DNA of 5,463 bases, from contig DAOVMD010000235.1 of NCBI GenBank assembly GCA_030630935.1, forward strand, positions 1-5,463. The letters run 5' to 3'. Within the stretch, counting starts at the first letter, position 1. Each line of letters opens with the position of its first letter. The DNA comes from Candidatus Mcinerneyibacteriota bacterium. Its GTDB lineage: Bacteria > AUK180 > JAQVHJ01. Below, piece by piece: positions 155 to 5,463 of this stretch. A program made the position numbers and the translations under genes. The notes below the pieces were generated by a model. That model saw only the letters and a program-made list of their open reading frames with translations, was not told where the DNA came from and ran no database searches.

Positions 155-273
155 TGCCACTACTGATGCATTCTAATATATAATGCAAAGTCATTTAGGC
201 ACCAAACCACCCAATGTATTGCCTGGTTAATTTTTTATTTTTTTTATCCCCTACATCCCATTCTTAAATAATT

Positions 274-392
274 TTGTTGCTTGAACAGAGCGCTGAGAGC
301 AGAGAACAGAGAGTCGAGAGCAGAGAACAGAGAGTAGTCGTTTCACTCACGACCGCAACCTAGATCTTGCTTCGCTGTGATGTGCAATGACA
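274..392 (+). repeat. Composite dispersed repeat, copy 1 (left arm of hairpin missing)
   Basis: The order of blocks is TTGTTGCTTGA (274-284), a purine-rich tract, AGTCG followed by CTCAC, TAGATCTTGCT (361-371) and GCAATGACA (384-392). The same blocks recur in the same order at 3154-3272. Inside the purine tract, GAGAGCAGAGAACAGAGAGT occurs twice (295-314 and 316-335), a 21-base tandem repeat. The 3' part resembles the widespread short palindromic repeats that end in GCAATGACA. It is non-coding in all frames and lies just upstream of the trkH promoter. Confidence 0.7.
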
Positions 393-442
393 AACAAATG
401 TTGGTAGTAATTATTTATTATATACCTTAACAAAAATTATCC

Positions 443-473
443 TTGACAATTTCCTTAAAATTTGGTACTTTTA
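443..473 (+). promoter_or_regulatory. Candidate promoter of the trkH-trkA-lipoprotein unit
   Basis: A perfect TTGACA (443-448) is followed by a 17-base spacer and TACTTT (466-471). The latter is a poor sigma-70 -10 box, but TACTTTTA (466-473) fits seven of eight positions of the Bacteroidota -7 element TAnnTTTG, as known for that phylum. Transcription would begin near 479, leaving a leader of only about 16 bases before ATG 495. A perfect TATAAT at 476-481 lacks a properly spaced -35 box. The assignment is by pattern only. Confidence 0.5.
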
Positions 474-494
474 TATATAATATGTGAGAAAAAC

Positions 495-2036
495 ATGAGT
501 GTTAGAACCAAGGCATATTTCAAAGTTAGAATCTCTGGGGTTTTCTACTATATCTCGACTGTCCTGATTATCGGTGGATTATTCCTCTTGTTACCTTTTA
601 TTATAGGTTTAATTTATGGTGAGTCAGGTAACACCATCGACCTGATTAAATCATTCGTTGTACCTGGTGTCGTTATCTTTTTTTTAGGTTTAATTTTAAA
701 ATACCGCTCAACAAAGAATCGAATATCTCTCAAGGATTCGATGTTCATCTGCAGTTTCTCCTGGATAATATTAACTATCATAGGGGCAATACCTTATGTA
801 GTAATGTTAAAAACGGGATATATCGATGCATTATTTGAGGCGATGAGTGGATTTACAACAACCGGTGCAACAATCCTTACAGGCCTTGATGAAATGCCCA
901 GGTCAATTCTGTTCTGGAGAGCATTCACTCAATGGATTGGTGGTTTGGGAATATTAAGTATGTTTATCTTAATTGGATTTAAAGGCGGGGCAGCAGCAAA
1001 TAAACTTTTTATTGCAGAGAGTCATAAAATTGCAGGGAAGAAACCTTCACCCGGAGCTTTTCATACTGCTAAGGTCTTATGGGAACTTTATATTGGCTTT
1101 ACACTTGCTCTAATAATTATTTTAAAAATTTGCGGCGTAGGTCTATTTGATGCAATGACTCATTCTTTCACAACCATCTCAACCGGCGGCTTTTCAATTT
1201 ATGATAATTCAATTACTCAATTCCAAATTTTAGGGTATCAATACCATCATATAATTGAAATTGTTATTATATTCTTCATGATCTTAGGCGGGATGAACTT
1301 TTTTATTCATTCCAGGATCCTGAAAGGAGATATCAAGTCGCTTTGGGATAGTACAGAAGTCCGTTATTTCTGGGGAATAATTTTGGGTTCGACATTATTG
1401 ATTCTTATAAGTTATTCAATCAGTAAGGGGCTTTCTTATGAAGCTATAAATGGAGAAGTAATTACCGGGGTTAATGCAGTATTGCTGCATTTAAAGGATA
1501 CAATATTTCAGGTAGTGTCAATTTTAACCACAACAGGATATGCAACAAGGGATATAAATTCAGGATACTTTACTCCATTTGCAAAACAGTTATTTCTAAT
1601 ACTTATGTTAATAGGTGGTTGTGCAGGATCTACATCAGGAGGTTTTAAAGTAATTAGGGTTGCCGTTTTATCAAAACTTGCAAAGAATAAAATTTATAAA
1701 TTAAATTCGAGTTCTTTTACTCGAGCACCTTTGACAATTGATAATGAAAAGATTGAGATGGAGGAGATTACCAGGATTACTGTGATCCTATTCCTTTGGA
1801 TTTTATTGTTAATAATTGGAGGAGCCGCAACTGCATTCTTTTCAAAATTATCAGCCTGGCAGAGTATATCCGGTATGTTCTCGGCACTAGGAAATATCGG
1901 CCCGTCATTTATTTCTGTACAGGAGATGATAGAGCTTAATCCAATTATTAAGTTGGTTTATATATTCGGTATGCTGGCAGGGAGATTAGAGATCCTGCCG
2001 GTTTTAATAATATTTAATAAGAAATTTTTCAAGTAG
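495..2036 (+). CDS. trkH: TrkH/KtrB-family potassium uptake channel subunit
   Basis: This is the ion-conducting subunit of a Trk/Ktr K+ uptake system in the inner membrane, 513 residues against about 485 in characterised TrkH. All four pore-loop repeats of the superfamily are present with their filter glycines: TTTGAT near residue 121, STGGFS near 229, TTTGYA near 345 and GGCAGSTSGG at 374-383. Each is flanked by hydrophobic membrane helices. The SALGNIGPS segment near 463 and the GRLEI motif near 496, typical of the fourth repeat, are intact, so the channel looks functional. A longer reading from TTG 462 would add 11 residues but would start inside the predicted promoter. ATG 495 is preferred, though its ribosome site (GTGAG) is weak. 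The RCK partner gene follows directly, so K+ flux should be controlled by nucleotide binding to that subunit. TrkH and KtrB are not separable with certainty. Confidence 0.95.
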   Translation: MSVRTKAYFKVRISGVFYYISTVLIIGGLFLLLPFIIGLIYGESGNTIDLIKSFVVPGVVIFFLGLILKYRSTKNRISLKDSMFICSFSWIILTIIGAIPYVVMLKTGYIDALFEAMSGFTTTGATILTGLDEMPRSILFWRAFTQWIGGLGILSMFILIGFKGGAAANKLFIAESHKIAGKKPSPGAFHTAKVLWELYIGFTLALIIILKICGVGLFDAMTHSFTTISTGGFSIYDNSITQFQILGYQYHHIIEIVIIFFMILGGMNFFIHSRILKGDIKSLWDSTEVRYFWGIILGSTLLILISYSISKGLSYEAINGEVITGVNAVLLHLKDTIFQVVSILTTTGYATRDINSGYFTPFAKQLFLILMLIGGCAGSTSGGFKVIRVAVLSKLAKNKIYKLNSSSFTRAPLTIDNEKIEMEEITRITVILFLWILLLIIGGAATAFFSKLSAWQSISGMFSALGNIGPSFISVQEMIELNPIIKLVYIFGMLAGRLEILPVLIIFNKKFFK

Positions 2037-2041
2037 GAGGT
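2035..2041 (+). promoter_or_regulatory. Strong ribosome binding site of trkA, overlapping the trkH stop
   Basis: AGGAGGT begins on the second base of the trkH TAG stop (2034-2036) and sits 4 bases before ATG 2046. Ribosomes finishing trkH are placed at the trkA start, which suggests translational coupling and balanced production of the two channel subunits. Confidence 0.85.
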
Positions 2042-2045
2042 CCAG

Positions 2046-2720
2046 ATGTATATTATCATTGCAGGTGGAGGAACACTGGGGTCGGAAATAATTTGTAAGC
2101 TGGTAGAGAAAAAAAGAGAGATTGCTGTAATTGAAAAGAACAGAGAAGTCTGTGATGAATTATTTACAGCTTACGGGATTGAAACAATTAATGGAAGTGC
2201 TACGAAGATCACAGTCCTGAAAGCTGCAGGGATTGAGAAAGCAGATGTTGTGGTGGCAACAATGCCGAACGATGCTGATAACCTTGTCCTTGCAGTTTTA
2301 GCTAAAAGCTTTTCTGTTCCTGAGATTATTGTGTTGATGCGGAAGAAAAATTATTATGAGGCGTATAAAACCGCGGGTGTAACGAAGATTTTAAATATTG
2401 TTGATATTTTAGTCAGGGATGTTATTTACCAGATTGAGAAACCTGAAGTTGAAAGGATTGCACAACTTGGCAATGGAGCGGTTGAGATATTTATAGTTAA
2501 GATTCCTAAAGGAGCAAATATTGTTGGGAAAACAATTTCAGAAATTGCTTCCGGAAAACAACTTACTGAAGAGAGTATTATTGCAGGGATCTTCGATGAG
2601 ACTGAAAACGAATTCAAAGTTCCGCGCGGTAATACGAAAATACCAATCGGTGCTAACTTATTTGTAATTACAAAACCTGAACTTGTTAATAAGACTGCAA
2701 AGTATCTTTTAGATAAGTAG
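2046..2720 (+). CDS. trkA: TrkA/KtrA-type RCK potassium channel regulator, single RCK unit
   Basis: This is the cytoplasmic gating subunit that binds the TrkH channel and controls K+ uptake in response to nucleotides. Residues 1-120 form the RCK_N Rossmann domain. The dinucleotide/nucleotide motif AGGGTLG spans residues 6-12, and acidic E30 ends the second strand. The family segment around TKITVLKAAGIEKADVVVAT (53-72) follows. Residues 135-224 match an RCK_C/TrkA_C domain, a known small-ligand site in this family. At 224 residues it has one RCK unit, like Bacillus KtrA, not the tandem pair of about 458 residues in E. coli TrkA. By analogy it should build an octameric ring from identical chains. 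The start is set by the strong ribosome site 4 bases upstream. Whether it prefers ATP/ADP or NAD(H), and whether RCK_C binds c-di-AMP, cannot be read from the sequence. Confidence 0.93.
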   Translation: MYIIIAGGGTLGSEIICKLVEKKREIAVIEKNREVCDELFTAYGIETINGSATKITVLKAAGIEKADVVVATMPNDADNLVLAVLAKSFSVPEIIVLMRKKNYYEAYKTAGVTKILNIVDILVRDVIYQIEKPEVERIAQLGNGAVEIFIVKIPKGANIVGKTISEIASGKQLTEESIIAGIFDETENEFKVPRGNTKIPIGANLFVITKPELVNKTAKYLLDK

Positions 2721-2766
2721 ATTCAGAGAACTAGTCTGGTTTTAATTATTAAACAAAGGAGACTTT

Positions 2767-3144
2767 ATGAAAAGGTTAAGTGTCTTTTTTATTTTTATAA
2801 TATTAATATGTCTGTTATTTACTTCTGCATGTTCACGGGAAATTACACTCGAGAAAAGGTTTTTAGGGAAGTGGCAGGTAGAGGATGAAAAGGATACTTT
2901 TCTTTACCTGAGTGAAGATGGACATTTGTATGTTCGGAATGATAAGCATATTAACACAACTTATAAAATTACTGAGCAAAACGAGCTAAACAGAAAGATC
3001 ACATGTCGTGTAATGAATCTTGATACTAAAGAGGAAATGATTTGGAGTTTTACTTTTTCAGAAGATTATAAAAAGATGACACTTGAAAGTAAAAAAGAAG
3101 GTACTGTTAAATTCCTATTTATTGATGGAACACAGACACCTTAG
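2767..3144 (+). CDS. Small lipoprotein with lipocalin-like fold features
   Basis: The protein has 125 residues. MKRL is followed by a hydrophobic stretch (5-18) and TSAC with cysteine 22, a signal peptide with a plausible but non-standard lipobox (no leucine at -3). The mature part is about 104 residues and contains LGKWQVED (33-40) and a run of alternating strand-like segments (YLSEDGHLYVRND, WSFTFSED, KKMTLES). A GxW motif followed by repeated beta strands and 'SEDxxKMTL' is typical of small lipocalin-like lipoproteins of Bacteroidota and relatives. The fold is an inference and no ligand is known. It starts 46 bases after trkA with a good AAAGGAG site 5 bases before ATG, and no strong terminator intervenes, so co-transcription with the K+ channel is likely. 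Its stop codon lies inside a perfect hairpin belonging to a dispersed repeat, so its last residues may be repeat-derived. Confidence 0.8.
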   Translation: MKRLSVFFIFIILICLLFTSACSREITLEKRFLGKWQVEDEKDTFLYLSEDGHLYVRNDKHINTTYKITEQNELNRKITCRVMNLDTKEEMIWSFTFSEDYKKMTLESKKEGTVKFLFIDGTQTP

Positions 3145-3172
3145 TCAAGCAACTTGTTGCTTGACTAAGGTG
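3137..3172 (+). terminator. Perfect 16-bp hairpin overlapping the lipoprotein stop codon
   Basis: CACCTTAGTCAAGCAA (3137-3152) pairs perfectly with TTGCTTGACTAAGGTG (3157-3172) around the loop CTTG. The TAG stop of the lipoprotein gene (3142-3144) is in the left arm. No T run follows on the + strand and no A run precedes it for the minus strand, so it is not a classical intrinsic terminator. It may act as an RNA 3' end that blocks decay or limits read-through. The inner part, CAAGCAA with TTGCTTG, recurs in the repeat copy near 5297-5313. Confidence 0.55.
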
Positions 3173-3278
3173 CAGATATCAGAGAACAGAGAGTAGAGAA
3201 CAGATACCAGAGAGCAGTCGCTAAGCTCGCGGACGCTTCGTTAGATCTTGCTCTTCCCGATTTGCAATGATAATCTGA
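3137..3278 (+). repeat. Composite dispersed repeat, copy 2 (with complete hairpin)
   Basis: This copy shares with copy 1 (274-392) the blocks TTGTTGCTTGA (3154-3164), AGAGAACAGAGAGTAG (3181-3196), AGTCGCTAAGCTCGCG (about 3216-3231), TAGATCTTGCT (3242-3252) and TGCAATGATAATCT (3263-3276), in the same order. Spacing between blocks differs, so it is a degenerate repeat, not a recent exact copy. It is non-coding in all frames and begins within the 3' end of the lipoprotein gene. Confidence 0.7.
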
Positions 3279-3305
3279 CGTTCTTATGCGCACCAACGCT
3301 ATTTA

Positions 3306-3345
3306 TCATCGCGAGAAGAGCACGGAGTACTCGACGTGGCGATCT
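3306..3345 (-). repeat. Short palindromic repeat unit, inverted and degenerate
   Basis: TCATCGCGAG at the left and GTGGCGATCT at the right match, with changes, the common intergenic unit that begins TCATTGCGAG and ends GGCAATCT. This orientation is opposite to the two units that follow at 3394 and 3484. A linked fragment CAGAGCGAAG (3351-3360) is the reverse complement of part of CGCTTCGCTCTG seen at 3424-3435 and 5117-5128. Confidence 0.5.
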
Positions 3346-3393
3346 CTGAGCAGAGCGAAGTCTTAATTAAATATATAATATTTTTTTTAAGCC

Positions 3394-3454
3394 AGATTGC
3401 CGCGGTCGCTATGTTAGTTCCTCCGCTTCGCTCTGGATAAACTCCATGACAATC
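3394..3454 (+). repeat. Short palindromic repeat unit AGATTGCC...GACAATC, copy A
   Basis: The unit begins AGATTGCCGCGG, contains CGCTTCGCTCTG (3424-3435) and ends CATGACAATC. Its ends are complementary (GATTG at 3395-3399 with CAATC at 3450-3454), so it can fold on itself. Such units are widely scattered in intergenic DNA of many bacteria. The origin is unclear here, and no transposase of the REP-associated type is in the window. Confidence 0.6.
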
Positions 3455-3483
3455 AAGAGCTCTTTGAAAAGGAGCATGCTCCC

Positions 3484-3560
3484 AGATTGCCGCATTTTGC
3501 TTTAGCGCGTGGCTGGAGTGGAACGGAAGTCATCCCGACGCGTCGGGACAATGACAATCT
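3484..3560 (+). repeat. Short palindromic repeat unit AGATTGCC...GACAATCT, copy B
   Basis: The unit begins AGATTGCCGC and ends AATGACAATCT. The terminal 7 bases AGATTGC/T and ACAATCT are complementary except for their inner ends. Near the right end it carries the perfect 16-base palindrome TCCCGACGCGTCGGGA (3533-3548). It lies 29 bases after copy A in the same orientation, but its internal sequence differs, so the two are not a recent tandem duplication. Confidence 0.6.
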
Positions 3561-3640
3561 AACGTTTTTTAAACGGGTTATCAAACCGATTCCATAGTAT
3601 AATTAAAATTTAAATAGTTTAATATTTAAAAATAAATTAC

Positions 3641-3669
3641 TTGATAATATGATAAATATCATTTATAAT
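3641..3669 (+). promoter_or_regulatory. Near-consensus sigma-70-type promoter with palindromic spacer
   Basis: TTGATA (3641-3646), a 17-base spacer and a perfect TATAAT (3664-3669) give one mismatch from the bacterial housekeeping consensus. Transcription would begin near 3676, leaving a leader of about 108 bases before ATG 3784. The spacer contains ATGATA-AA-TATCAT (3649-3662), an exact inverted repeat between the two boxes, where a bound repressor would block polymerase. The very high A+T content here raises the chance of a random match. Confidence 0.55.
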
Positions 3670-3767
3670 AAAGAAAAGAAAACAGTTTACATAAAGAATT
3701 AAGAACTGATTTTTTAAGATAACTCGGACTGCGAATTTCAAATAGTTCAATTCCGGAGCATCATATT

Positions 3768-3774
3768 TGGAGGT
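3768..3774 (+). promoter_or_regulatory. Ribosome binding site that decides the GNAT-like start
   Basis: TGGAGGT directly touches the first possible ATG (3775), leaving no spacing for initiation there. The in-frame ATG at 3784 lies 10 bases from the GGAGG core, which is workable. ATG 3784 is therefore the better start, shortening the protein by three residues. Confidence 0.7.
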
Positions 3775-3783
3775 ATGAAGTTT

Positions 3784-4497
3784 ATGACCGAGAATAAATT
3801 AATAGGACAAATTCTTGAGATTAAAAAACTAACCCCAAAGATGACCGAGGAAATATTTACATTATATACAAAATATTTTTTTATTAAGAAAGAAGCTTTT
3901 GATAAAGACCTTAAAGAGAAATCCTGGATAATTCTAATTTTAGATACAAAAACAAATGAGATAAGGGGATTCTCCACTATGATGCTGCTAAAGACATTGA
4001 TCCAGGGTAAGGATATCCATGCAATATTTTCCGGTGATACGATTGTTGAAGAAGATAGCAGTAATGAATCAGTTTTAATGAGAATGTTTGCCAGGTTCAC
4101 ATTAGAATTATCAAAGAAATACGATAATTTATATTGGTTCCTACTCTCGATGGGATATAGAACATATCGGTTCCTACCAATGTTCTTTTATGAATTTTGG
4201 CCGCGGTTTGAAAAGAAAACACCGCTTTTTGAGCAGAGAGTTATTGATTCTCTTGCGGTAAAGAAATTTGGAGATTTTTATAATCCGGATAAAGGTATTA
4301 TCTATCCGCAAATGGGTTGTCACCTTAAACCCGAATTTGCACAGATTCCAACTAAGAGATTGAAGAATCCACACGTAATGTTTTTTCTGGAAAAAAACCT
4401 GGGTTATATTAAAGGTGACGAACTTGCGTGTATAACAGCTCTATCTAAGGAGAATTTTAAACCTGAAATTCTAAGACGATTGGGCTTGGATATCTAA
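3784..4497 (+). CDS. Uncharacterised protein with GNAT-like (acyl-CoA N-acyltransferase) features
   Basis: The protein has 237 residues, is soluble and has no signal peptide or membrane segment. The N-terminal half reads as alternating helices and strands (WIILILDTKTNEIRGFSTMM near 48-67, then IHAIFSGDTIVEE near 78-90), in the manner of the GNAT fold, where a strand precedes the acyl-CoA site. The canonical acetyl-CoA loop Q/RxxGxG/A is not evident. Conserved-looking blocks are LSMGYRTYRFLPMFF (121-135) followed by EFWPRFEKKTP (137-147), KFGDFYNPDKGII (161-173) and NPHVMFFLEKNLGYIKGDEL (195-214). From memory, similar blocks occur in uncharacterised bacterial proteins, but I cannot name the family. 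Substrate and reaction are unknown. It appears monocistronic, preceded by its own promoter and followed by a 104-base gap. Antisense ORFs across it are shadows. Confidence 0.8.
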   Translation: MTENKLIGQILEIKKLTPKMTEEIFTLYTKYFFIKKEAFDKDLKEKSWIILILDTKTNEIRGFSTMMLLKTLIQGKDIHAIFSGDTIVEEDSSNESVLMRMFARFTLELSKKYDNLYWFLLSMGYRTYRFLPMFFYEFWPRFEKKTPLFEQRVIDSLAVKKFGDFYNPDKGIIYPQMGCHLKPEFAQIPTKRLKNPHVMFFLEKNLGYIKGDELACITALSKENFKPEILRRLGLDI

Positions 4498-4515
4498 TAA
4501 ATCATATAATACCGG

Positions 4516-4546
4516 ATTAAATTTATAAGTTTAATAAAAATTTTTT
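4516..4546 (+). terminator. Weak AT-rich terminator candidate
   Basis: ATTAAATT (4516-4523) pairs with AGTTTAAT (4528-4535), with one G-U pair, around TATA. Five A and six T (4541-4546) follow. The stem contains no G-C pair and the T run is five bases away, so termination would be inefficient. The next gene may receive read-through from the GNAT-like gene. Confidence 0.25.
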
Positions 4547-4547
4547 C

Positions 4548-4574
4548 TTTGATTTTTCAACGCTTTTATTTTAG
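4548..4574 (+). promoter_or_regulatory. Possible Bacteroidota-type promoter for the 4602 gene
   Basis: TTTG (4548-4551) and TATTTTAG (4567-4574) resemble the TTTG and TAnnTTTG elements of Bacteroidota, with one mismatch in the second. The spacing of 15 bases is shorter than usual. In such AT-rich DNA a chance match is likely. Confidence 0.25.
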
Positions 4575-4601
4575 AAAGTAATAAAAAAAAGGAGGTTTAT
4601 T

Positions 4602-5096
4602 ATGGTTAATGAAATTCCAAGTGATGCAAAAGCCACACCGACATTAAAAGAATCACAAAGTCAACTGGATAAAAAGACCGCAAGTAATTTAAAGACTGCT
4701 CAAAACCAAACTGTTTCTCCACCAACTCAATCTGCAGCCGGAACAACTCTTGTTTCATTTGATGGAACAAAAGATACTTCTGTTTATTCATATCAAAATG
4801 TCCCGACCAATGTTCTTGCTCAGAAACTGGAGATATTCTTCAATGGTAAAAAATATAAATTGGAAGAAGGTACCATTGAAAAAGGAGTTTATGGAATAGG
4901 TAACCCAATCTTGAGAATTATCTTAGGAGCATTTATAAAAAGGTACAAATTTAATTTCTCTATTACAGAATCATCCGGAAAAACTACTTTGGAATTTTCA
5001 AAAGGAATGACTGGAGCTATGGGCGGAGTTATTGGTTACTCTCAAATGAACAATGAATTTCAAAGGCTGACTGAAGAGATAAAGATATTAATTTAA
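4602..5096 (+). CDS. Hypothetical cytoplasmic protein, disordered N-terminus plus small alpha/beta domain
   Basis: The protein has 164 residues and I do not recognise its family. Residues 1-60 are rich in S, T, Q, K and P with no hydrophobic stretch, so they are probably disordered and there is no signal peptide. Residues 68-164 look folded: a helix (VLAQKLEIFF), a short strand (KYKLEEGTIEKGVYG), a basic amphipathic block (ILRIILGAFIKRYKFNFSI, 103-121), a strand pair (GKTTLEFS) and a glycine-rich turn MTGAMGGVIGY (136-146) before a final helix (NNEFQRLTEEIKIL). The KRYKF and GAMGG blocks look like conserved positions. The start is secure: AAAAGGAGG sits 6 bases before ATG 4602. It follows the GNAT-like gene by 104 bases and may be transcribed separately. 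No function can be assigned from sequence or neighbours. Confidence 0.8.
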   Translation: MVNEIPSDAKATPTLKESQSQLDKKTASNLKTAQNQTVSPPTQSAAGTTLVSFDGTKDTSVYSYQNVPTNVLAQKLEIFFNGKKYKLEEGTIEKGVYGIGNPILRIILGAFIKRYKFNFSITESSGKTTLEFSKGMTGAMGGVIGYSQMNNEFQRLTEEIKILI

Positions 5097-5160
5097 AAAC
5101 ATAAAAAATATAGCATCGCTTCGCTCTGCAAAAAAGAGTTCAAGGCATGCTTCGCAGGCG

Positions 5161-5178
5161 TTCAAGTGTTCAAGTGTT
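5161..5178 (+). repeat. Short tandem repeat of TTCAAGTG
   Basis: TTCAAGTG occurs twice in direct succession, followed by TT. A further GTTCAAG lies 22 bases upstream (5138-5144). The repeat is embedded in DNA that also carries fragments of the dispersed repeats, so it is probably part of the same degenerate repeat landscape. Confidence 0.5.
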
Positions 5179-5261
5179 ATCGTTTCGCTTTGCTCAGATC
5201 GATGTTTCTTAACATAAAATGTTTTAATTACCCTTAATTATCAAATGAAGGCAAATTCTTT

Positions 5262-5313
5262 TCTGTTCTCTGTTCTCAACTATCTGCTCTCTGCTAAAGC
5301 AACGGAGTTGCTT
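5262..5313 (-). repeat. Composite dispersed repeat, copy 3 (inverted)
   Basis: Read on the minus strand, this is a 7-bp hairpin AAGCAAC-TCC-GTTGCTT (5297-5313) followed by a purine-rich tract with GCAGAGAGCAG and GAGAACAGAGAACAGA (5262-5295). This is the same order, hairpin then AGAGAACAGA tract, as in the copy at 3137-3196. The hairpin arms match the inner part of the 3137-3172 hairpin. The downstream TAGATCTTGCT and GCAATGACA blocks are not found next to this copy. Confidence 0.6.
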
Positions 5314-5463
5314 GAGCATGGCATGTCTCGTTGAAATAATTTAAGAACAAAACAATAAAAACTTTGGACATTCTGTTAATGAAAAAAAAGTAACATTATT
5401 GATAAAACTTTCTTCTGTCTCCAAAGAAATGTATTTTCCAAATTTATCAAGAGTGTTCCGTTA

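Follow-up and report, generated by a model that had tools for sequence, protein, structure and literature searches.

The BOX element of Streptococcus pneumoniae has terminal inverted repeats and target duplications and measures 67–637 bp in all (PMC3049150). Like BOX, the repeat described here, termed family A, is modular and intergenic, with an end module, variable tandem middle units and another end module; both number around 100 copies or more, are placed among other repeats, lack a transposase of their own and often form the 3′ ends of genes, whereas family A carries a hairpin at one end only, has 7-nt units where those of BOX are larger, and shows no duplication (PMC3049150). REP and REPIN sequences linked to RAYT or TIRYT proteins are also short, intergenic, palindromic and abundant, with Y1 genes in the genome (PMC3733652, PMC3116915), and CGTC REPs occur without a dedicated transposase (PMC3733652). 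Family A differs from them in being absent at Y1 genes, in a palindrome without GTAG or CGTC tag and in a stem whose sequence is not conserved; close pairs are inverted in REPINs, whereas nearby family A copies are direct (12 to 1). It differs from MITEs in having neither terminal inverted repeats nor a target-site duplication. The small dispersed repeats of Nostoc, reportedly described by Elhai and colleagues in 2008, are said to be mobile, 21–27 nt long and found inside other repeats. To our knowledge, their means of movement is unknown and they have no heptad tract; family A, equally very short and set inside other repeats, does have one. Lacking the REP and MITE hallmarks tested, family A is a small dispersed repeat that is new and restricted to one taxonomic family, and its unusual part is the flank-derived stem. 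The open question addressed is by what means short bacterial repeats spread when no transposase matches them.

The window, 5,463 nt, spans contig C197 from end to end; the draft genome it belongs to comprises 3.16 Mb in 471 contigs, is 80% complete and is the single genome sampled for its genus. Of the relatives searched, only one further genome shares its family and five more its class. Loci were picked via the repeat itself, and genes were called as simple open frames. The window encodes TrkH, TrkA, a small lipoprotein-like frame, a weak GNAT-like frame and an unknown frame; in the collection of named genomes, the closest TrkH relative (57% identical) belongs to ‘bacterium isolate Zod_Metabat.86’. 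The original prediction described a composite repeat of hairpin and purine tract in three intergenic copies, one of them inverted. All three score with the family model (E 1e-10 to 8e-17), and 274–356 and 3154–3236 are 76% identical without gaps. A further, truncated copy lies at the contig start (position 6, E 0.0025; Table 1). Several details of the prediction needed correction: the exact 13-nt purine tract is present at 301, 322 and 3181 only, with the inverted copy reading GAGAACAGAGAACAG; the TTGCTTG arm is replaced by GTTGCTTTAGC in that inverted copy; and copy 1, whose left arm (TTAAATAATTT) has decayed, has no intact hairpin.

Table 1 Repeat features of the window and the evidence for each
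Feature	Position	Strand	Evidence
Family A fourth copy, 3′ tail (CAGTTGTTTTATAGAT), cut by contig start	1..22	+	R1 model match 1-21, E 0.0025; other full copies have the same tail
Family A copy 1: decayed left arm, right arm GTTGCTTGA, ~7 heptads	257..341	+	R1 257-320, E 1.3e-10; heptad array
Family B module (AGTCGTTTCACTC...TAGATCTTGCTTCGCTGTGATGTGCAATGACA)	336..392	+	81% to B consensus, positions 11-67
Hairpin of family A copy 2, 17-bp perfect stem	3137..3172	+	Arms 100% complementary; family consensus comparison
Heptad purine tract of family A copy 2	3173..3217	+	R1 3138-3205, E 6.3e-13; tandem repeats
Family B module (TAGATCTTGCT, TTTGCAATGA blocks) joined to copy 2 at AGTCG	3216..3278	+	Aligned with 274-392, 74% over 117 bases
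Family A copy 3: GCTCAAGCAACTCCGTTGCTTTAGC hairpin and tract; CAGAAAAGAATTTGCC in place of usual tail	5256..5322	-	R1, E 8.3e-17
Module C without A insertion, an empty site (...ACACTCTTGATAAATTTGGAAAATACATTTCTTTGG...)	5345..5463	-	At other loci the module carries A here

Family A is about 72 nt long and consists of a hairpin (11–12 bp, 3-nt loop), four to five purine heptads (CAGAGAR) and a tail, CAGTYGTTTTATAGAT. Full copies read ATTCTCAAGCAAC-TYY-GTTGCTTGA ACAGAGA RCAGATA TCAGAGA ACCGAGA RCAGTYGTTTTATAGAT; conservation falls off on either side of this text, and the element has no coding capacity. A covariance model built from 42 copies (R1) found at least 150 places in the genome, all at E ≤ 7.6e-8, which bears out the predicted dispersed, non-coding element on both strands and speaks against a repeat of few copies. 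Seventeen of these places have a contig start within 250 nt, as fits repeats that break assembly. An exact search gave 47 occurrences of AGAGAACAGAGAG and none of its reversed control, so chance does not account for the number. The main hairpin core is present at 82 sites and, among the sites listed, nearly all overlap R1 matches, indicating that hairpin and tract form one unit. Length takes a single value in 41 of 52 full copies and differs by multiples of seven in most of the others; the lengths 59, 66, 73, 81, 87 and 94 nt ascend in steps of about 7. Neighbouring copies within 600 nt lie on the same strand in 12 cases and on opposite strands in one. The only inverted repeat met is the one-ended hairpin, with no terminal inverted repeats, and matching flanks of k ≥ 3 were in no excess over shuffled pairs among 79 copies, giving no sign of a target-site duplication. 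The consensus at the hairpin foot is ATTCTC, and GTAG appears in neighbouring modules only.

The blocks TAGATCTTGCT and TGCAATGA, predicted to be shared by two copies in the same order, are present but belong to a second repeat family mostly found without the hairpin and purine element. This family B (AGATTGCCGC...TAGATCTTGCTTCGCTGCGATGCGCAATGACA) occupies 43 places of its own, mostly without A, and breaks into sub-blocks. When 274–392 was searched against the genome, the 44 places hit fell into pieces 1–70 (family A) and 63–119 (family B). The predicted composite is thus not a unit; two independent families are in contact, meeting in copies 1 and 2 at the letters AGTCG, which occur in both the A tail (CAGTCGTTTT) and B (CAGTCGCTACGCTC), and the junction was therefore likely formed through these shared letters. 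More generally, family A sits in mosaics of other short repeats, with about ten kinds of left and six kinds of right neighbours in many combinations. A fused-pattern search for empty sites caught three copies and exposed the one in module C, which carries A at one place in several copies and lacks it in others, including that at the right end of the window; composites, therefore, also spread as units.

Gene-context counts, which covered orientation relative to genes as proposed, revealed no orientation preference for family A, and a directional terminator reading was rejected on this ground. Among 122 testable tracts, 22 lie no more than 45 nt past the stop of a 100-codon open frame, a stop that in several cases comes from the element itself.

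A loop-3 hairpin with at least 9 of 11 pairs lies directly 5′ of 65% of 186 tracts, compared with 4.5% of 2,000 random positions drawn from the same loci; about one tract in three lacks a good hairpin. The phase from hairpin apex to heptads is constant in 113 of 121 copies, although the right arm takes 44 different 11-mer forms. Because of this fixed register, our first view of a free junction between hairpin and tract was dropped for most copies. In the 42-copy alignment, 8 of 12 stem pairs have changed on both sides, a result reached in none of 500 shuffles; pairs 4–8, 10 and 11 exceed all of 1,000 shuffles and pairs 13–16 do not. Among copies with a common inner core, stems of at least 12 bp numbered 23, compared with a mean of 15.2 and a maximum of 22 when left flanks were exchanged (1,000 rounds). 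All these stem counts include related copies and are not numbers of independent events. Most family A stems are inherited consensus forms. Covariation of this kind could also come from selection on the hairpin; within a genome, it can arise without proving an RNA function.

Individual copies show where other stems may have come from. The left arm of window copy 2 is the end of the open frame at 2767–3144, including its stop codon, and its right arm, CTAAGGTG, replaces the first heptad plus one letter at equal length, after which the next heptad, CAGATATC, resumes in register. A similar replacement was found at L271. Stems of 20, 18 and 12 bp at L303, L209 and L296 consist of locus-unique sequence, flush with the tract and outside the usual register, and gene stops lie inside the left arm in the window and at L134, L136 and L137. 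At L250, from a related genus, GAGCCAATTTTTGC-TTT-GCAAAAATTGGCTC is followed by heptads, and a tRNA-Asn gene identified by ARAGORN has GAGCCA as its 3′ end. Since the tRNA end is fixed by its own function, the right arm is the copy, and at this locus the left flank served as its template. Together with the gene stops, this points to a left arm that was there beforehand. More broadly, family A hairpin arms seem to be re-copied from whatever DNA adjoins them. Quasipalindrome template switching rewrites one arm of an imperfect inverted repeat from the other and extends their pairing (PMC7202029, PMC8604942). Fold-back switching of this type gives the pattern seen here, and we infer it as the cause; it is known as sporadic mutations, whereas here it would act on many copies of a whole repeat family. 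Selection on the hairpin accounts for the covariation, not for the extension into flank and heptad.

Among relatives, R1 found four copies in the same-family genome of a different genus (G001), which combine a hairpin that differs (TTCAAACGACACAGTCGTTTGAA) with a tract of the same kind. In the five genomes from another family of the class it matched nothing convincingly; weak matches in G004 and G005 do not have the same structure. G002–G004 contain heptad tracts of the form (AGTGAAC)n, some of them beside the end of a gene or tRNA, and these adjoin few hairpins or none; of the more distant genomes, a single one has such tracts. From these searches, tracts extend across the class and the hairpin-plus-tract arrangement is confined to one family. 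Exact-pattern scans of other bacterial genomes and viral contigs returned no match. The orthologous trkA/trkH region of G001 (L311, 2200–3348) has a flanking spacer with other modules and a Y1 gene and without family A.

As predicted, no transposase lies in the window. The suggested link to a REP-associated transposase did not hold: the genome has three Y1 genes, and across 30 Y1 loci (these and 27 sampled from seven other genomes) R1 gave only two weak, AT-rich matches (19 and 18 bits) without hairpin or heptads, so a RAYT connection is rejected on present data. Two of the genome's own Y1 genes are flanked by repeats of their own (GGGACGGT...; GACAGAAGACAGAGGCCGGCACCC), which were seen elsewhere near A and are not A. 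The Y1 transposase loci L032, L033 and L330 carry the flanking repeats GGGACGG..., GACAGAAGACAGAGGCCGGCACCC and GGGGACAG, the last of which fits the GGGGWSAS motif of TIR-flanked tyrosine transposases (PMC3733652). A search for RVT_1 reverse transcriptases found none in the 80%-complete genome, and mobilization by such an enzyme (retron, group II, DGR) was set aside; the text at L031 1–350 is reminiscent of a group II intron 3′ part (GAGCCCGTTGCGGGAAAACCGCACGGCGGGTTCTG) despite the absence of RVT_1. No transposase family recurs beside A that could be a hitch-hiking gene, save for two Y1 genes fetched on purpose, and other recurrent proteins there appear to be diverged paralogues or short frames read from repeats.

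We favor, with somewhat better than even confidence, a reading of family A as a non-autonomous small dispersed repeat of BOX-like layout, in which fold-back template switching rewrites the stem. The 3′ end of a DNA strand would fold on a 3-nt loop and the left flank would be copied into the right arm, so that each locus would get its own near-perfect hairpin; heptad number would change by slippage, and new copies would form through single-strand or replication-associated joining beside other intergenic modules, with no dedicated cut-and-paste transposase involved in the spread. With at least 150 copies, a fixed register and flank-derived stems, family A would then record fold-back copying at gene ends directly in its sequence. 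A doubtful extension is that an active process joins the heptad-tract element to a folded-back DNA 3′ end, insertion building the hairpin from the neighboring gene; the tRNA-Asn 3′ end in one genus and the protein stop codon in another could, tentatively, be instances. If true, neither terminal repeats nor target duplications nor a dedicated transposase would be needed for short repeats to spread. It is unlikely that family A is instead a REP-like element that a Y1 (RAYT/TIRYT) single-strand transposase, acting in trans, recognizes by the hairpin and moves: the subterminal hairpin, the missing target duplication, the three Y1 genes and the GTAG-headed palindromes adjoining A tails would suit such an enzyme, but the 30 Y1 loci hold no convincing A, the genome's own Y1 genes are flanked by other repeats, neighbouring copies lie in direct and not in inverted orientation, and the 44 right-arm sequences are more than a hairpin recognized in one fixed form would tolerate.

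Selection with compensatory changes on a functional RNA or DNA structure, such as a transcript end, processing site or protein site, would explain the strong covariation and the frequent position at gene 3′ ends (a stop within 45 nt for 22 of 122 tracts). We consider it quite unlikely, as stems of 17–20 bp reach into locus-unique flank and overwrite the first heptad, orientation is unbiased, the hairpin is missing from a third of tracts and is not followed by a T run, and an Rfam scan of the window gave no match. The flush junction between many different hairpins and the tract could also mean that hairpins came first and the tract was inserted on their 3′ side, in the manner of group IIC introns and other hairpin-seeking elements. 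This is very unlikely: the core, present at 82 sites, is accompanied by a tract at nearly all of those listed and so moves together with it; stems of 7–20 bp would all need recognition at the base; a hairpin that already drew on the last six bases of a tRNA gene is improbable; and the genome has no RVT_1. Fold-back rewriting of the stem remains our preferred account.

Further repeats were noted in and around these loci. Family A forms part of a head-to-tail composite array with a period of about 77 nt (GGGGGACGTACATGG plus A) in contig C425 (L012, 1–240), and in L028, L056, L265, L266 and L278 a second hairpin (CTCATATACCACGTAGGGTATACGAC) is inserted inside the loop of its hairpin. In the window, the intergenic stretch 3290–3575 is filled by two more B-like repeats (AGATTGCCGC...CAATGACAATC) and other palindromes. 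The GCATTCTAATATATAATGC hairpin module at 165–187 is found elsewhere 3′ of A tails in 17 of 79 full copies, and the GTTCAAGTGTTCAAGTG tandem at 5158–5178 has related GAACACTTGAACAATTGAAC tracts at many loci. Positions 49–150 hold a hexad tract, AGTAAGAGTATGAGTATG, and an inverted partner around a ACTCCCCGATTAGGGGAGC hairpin; the same set recurs in L054 and L062, and it is another hairpin-plus-short-tandem family.
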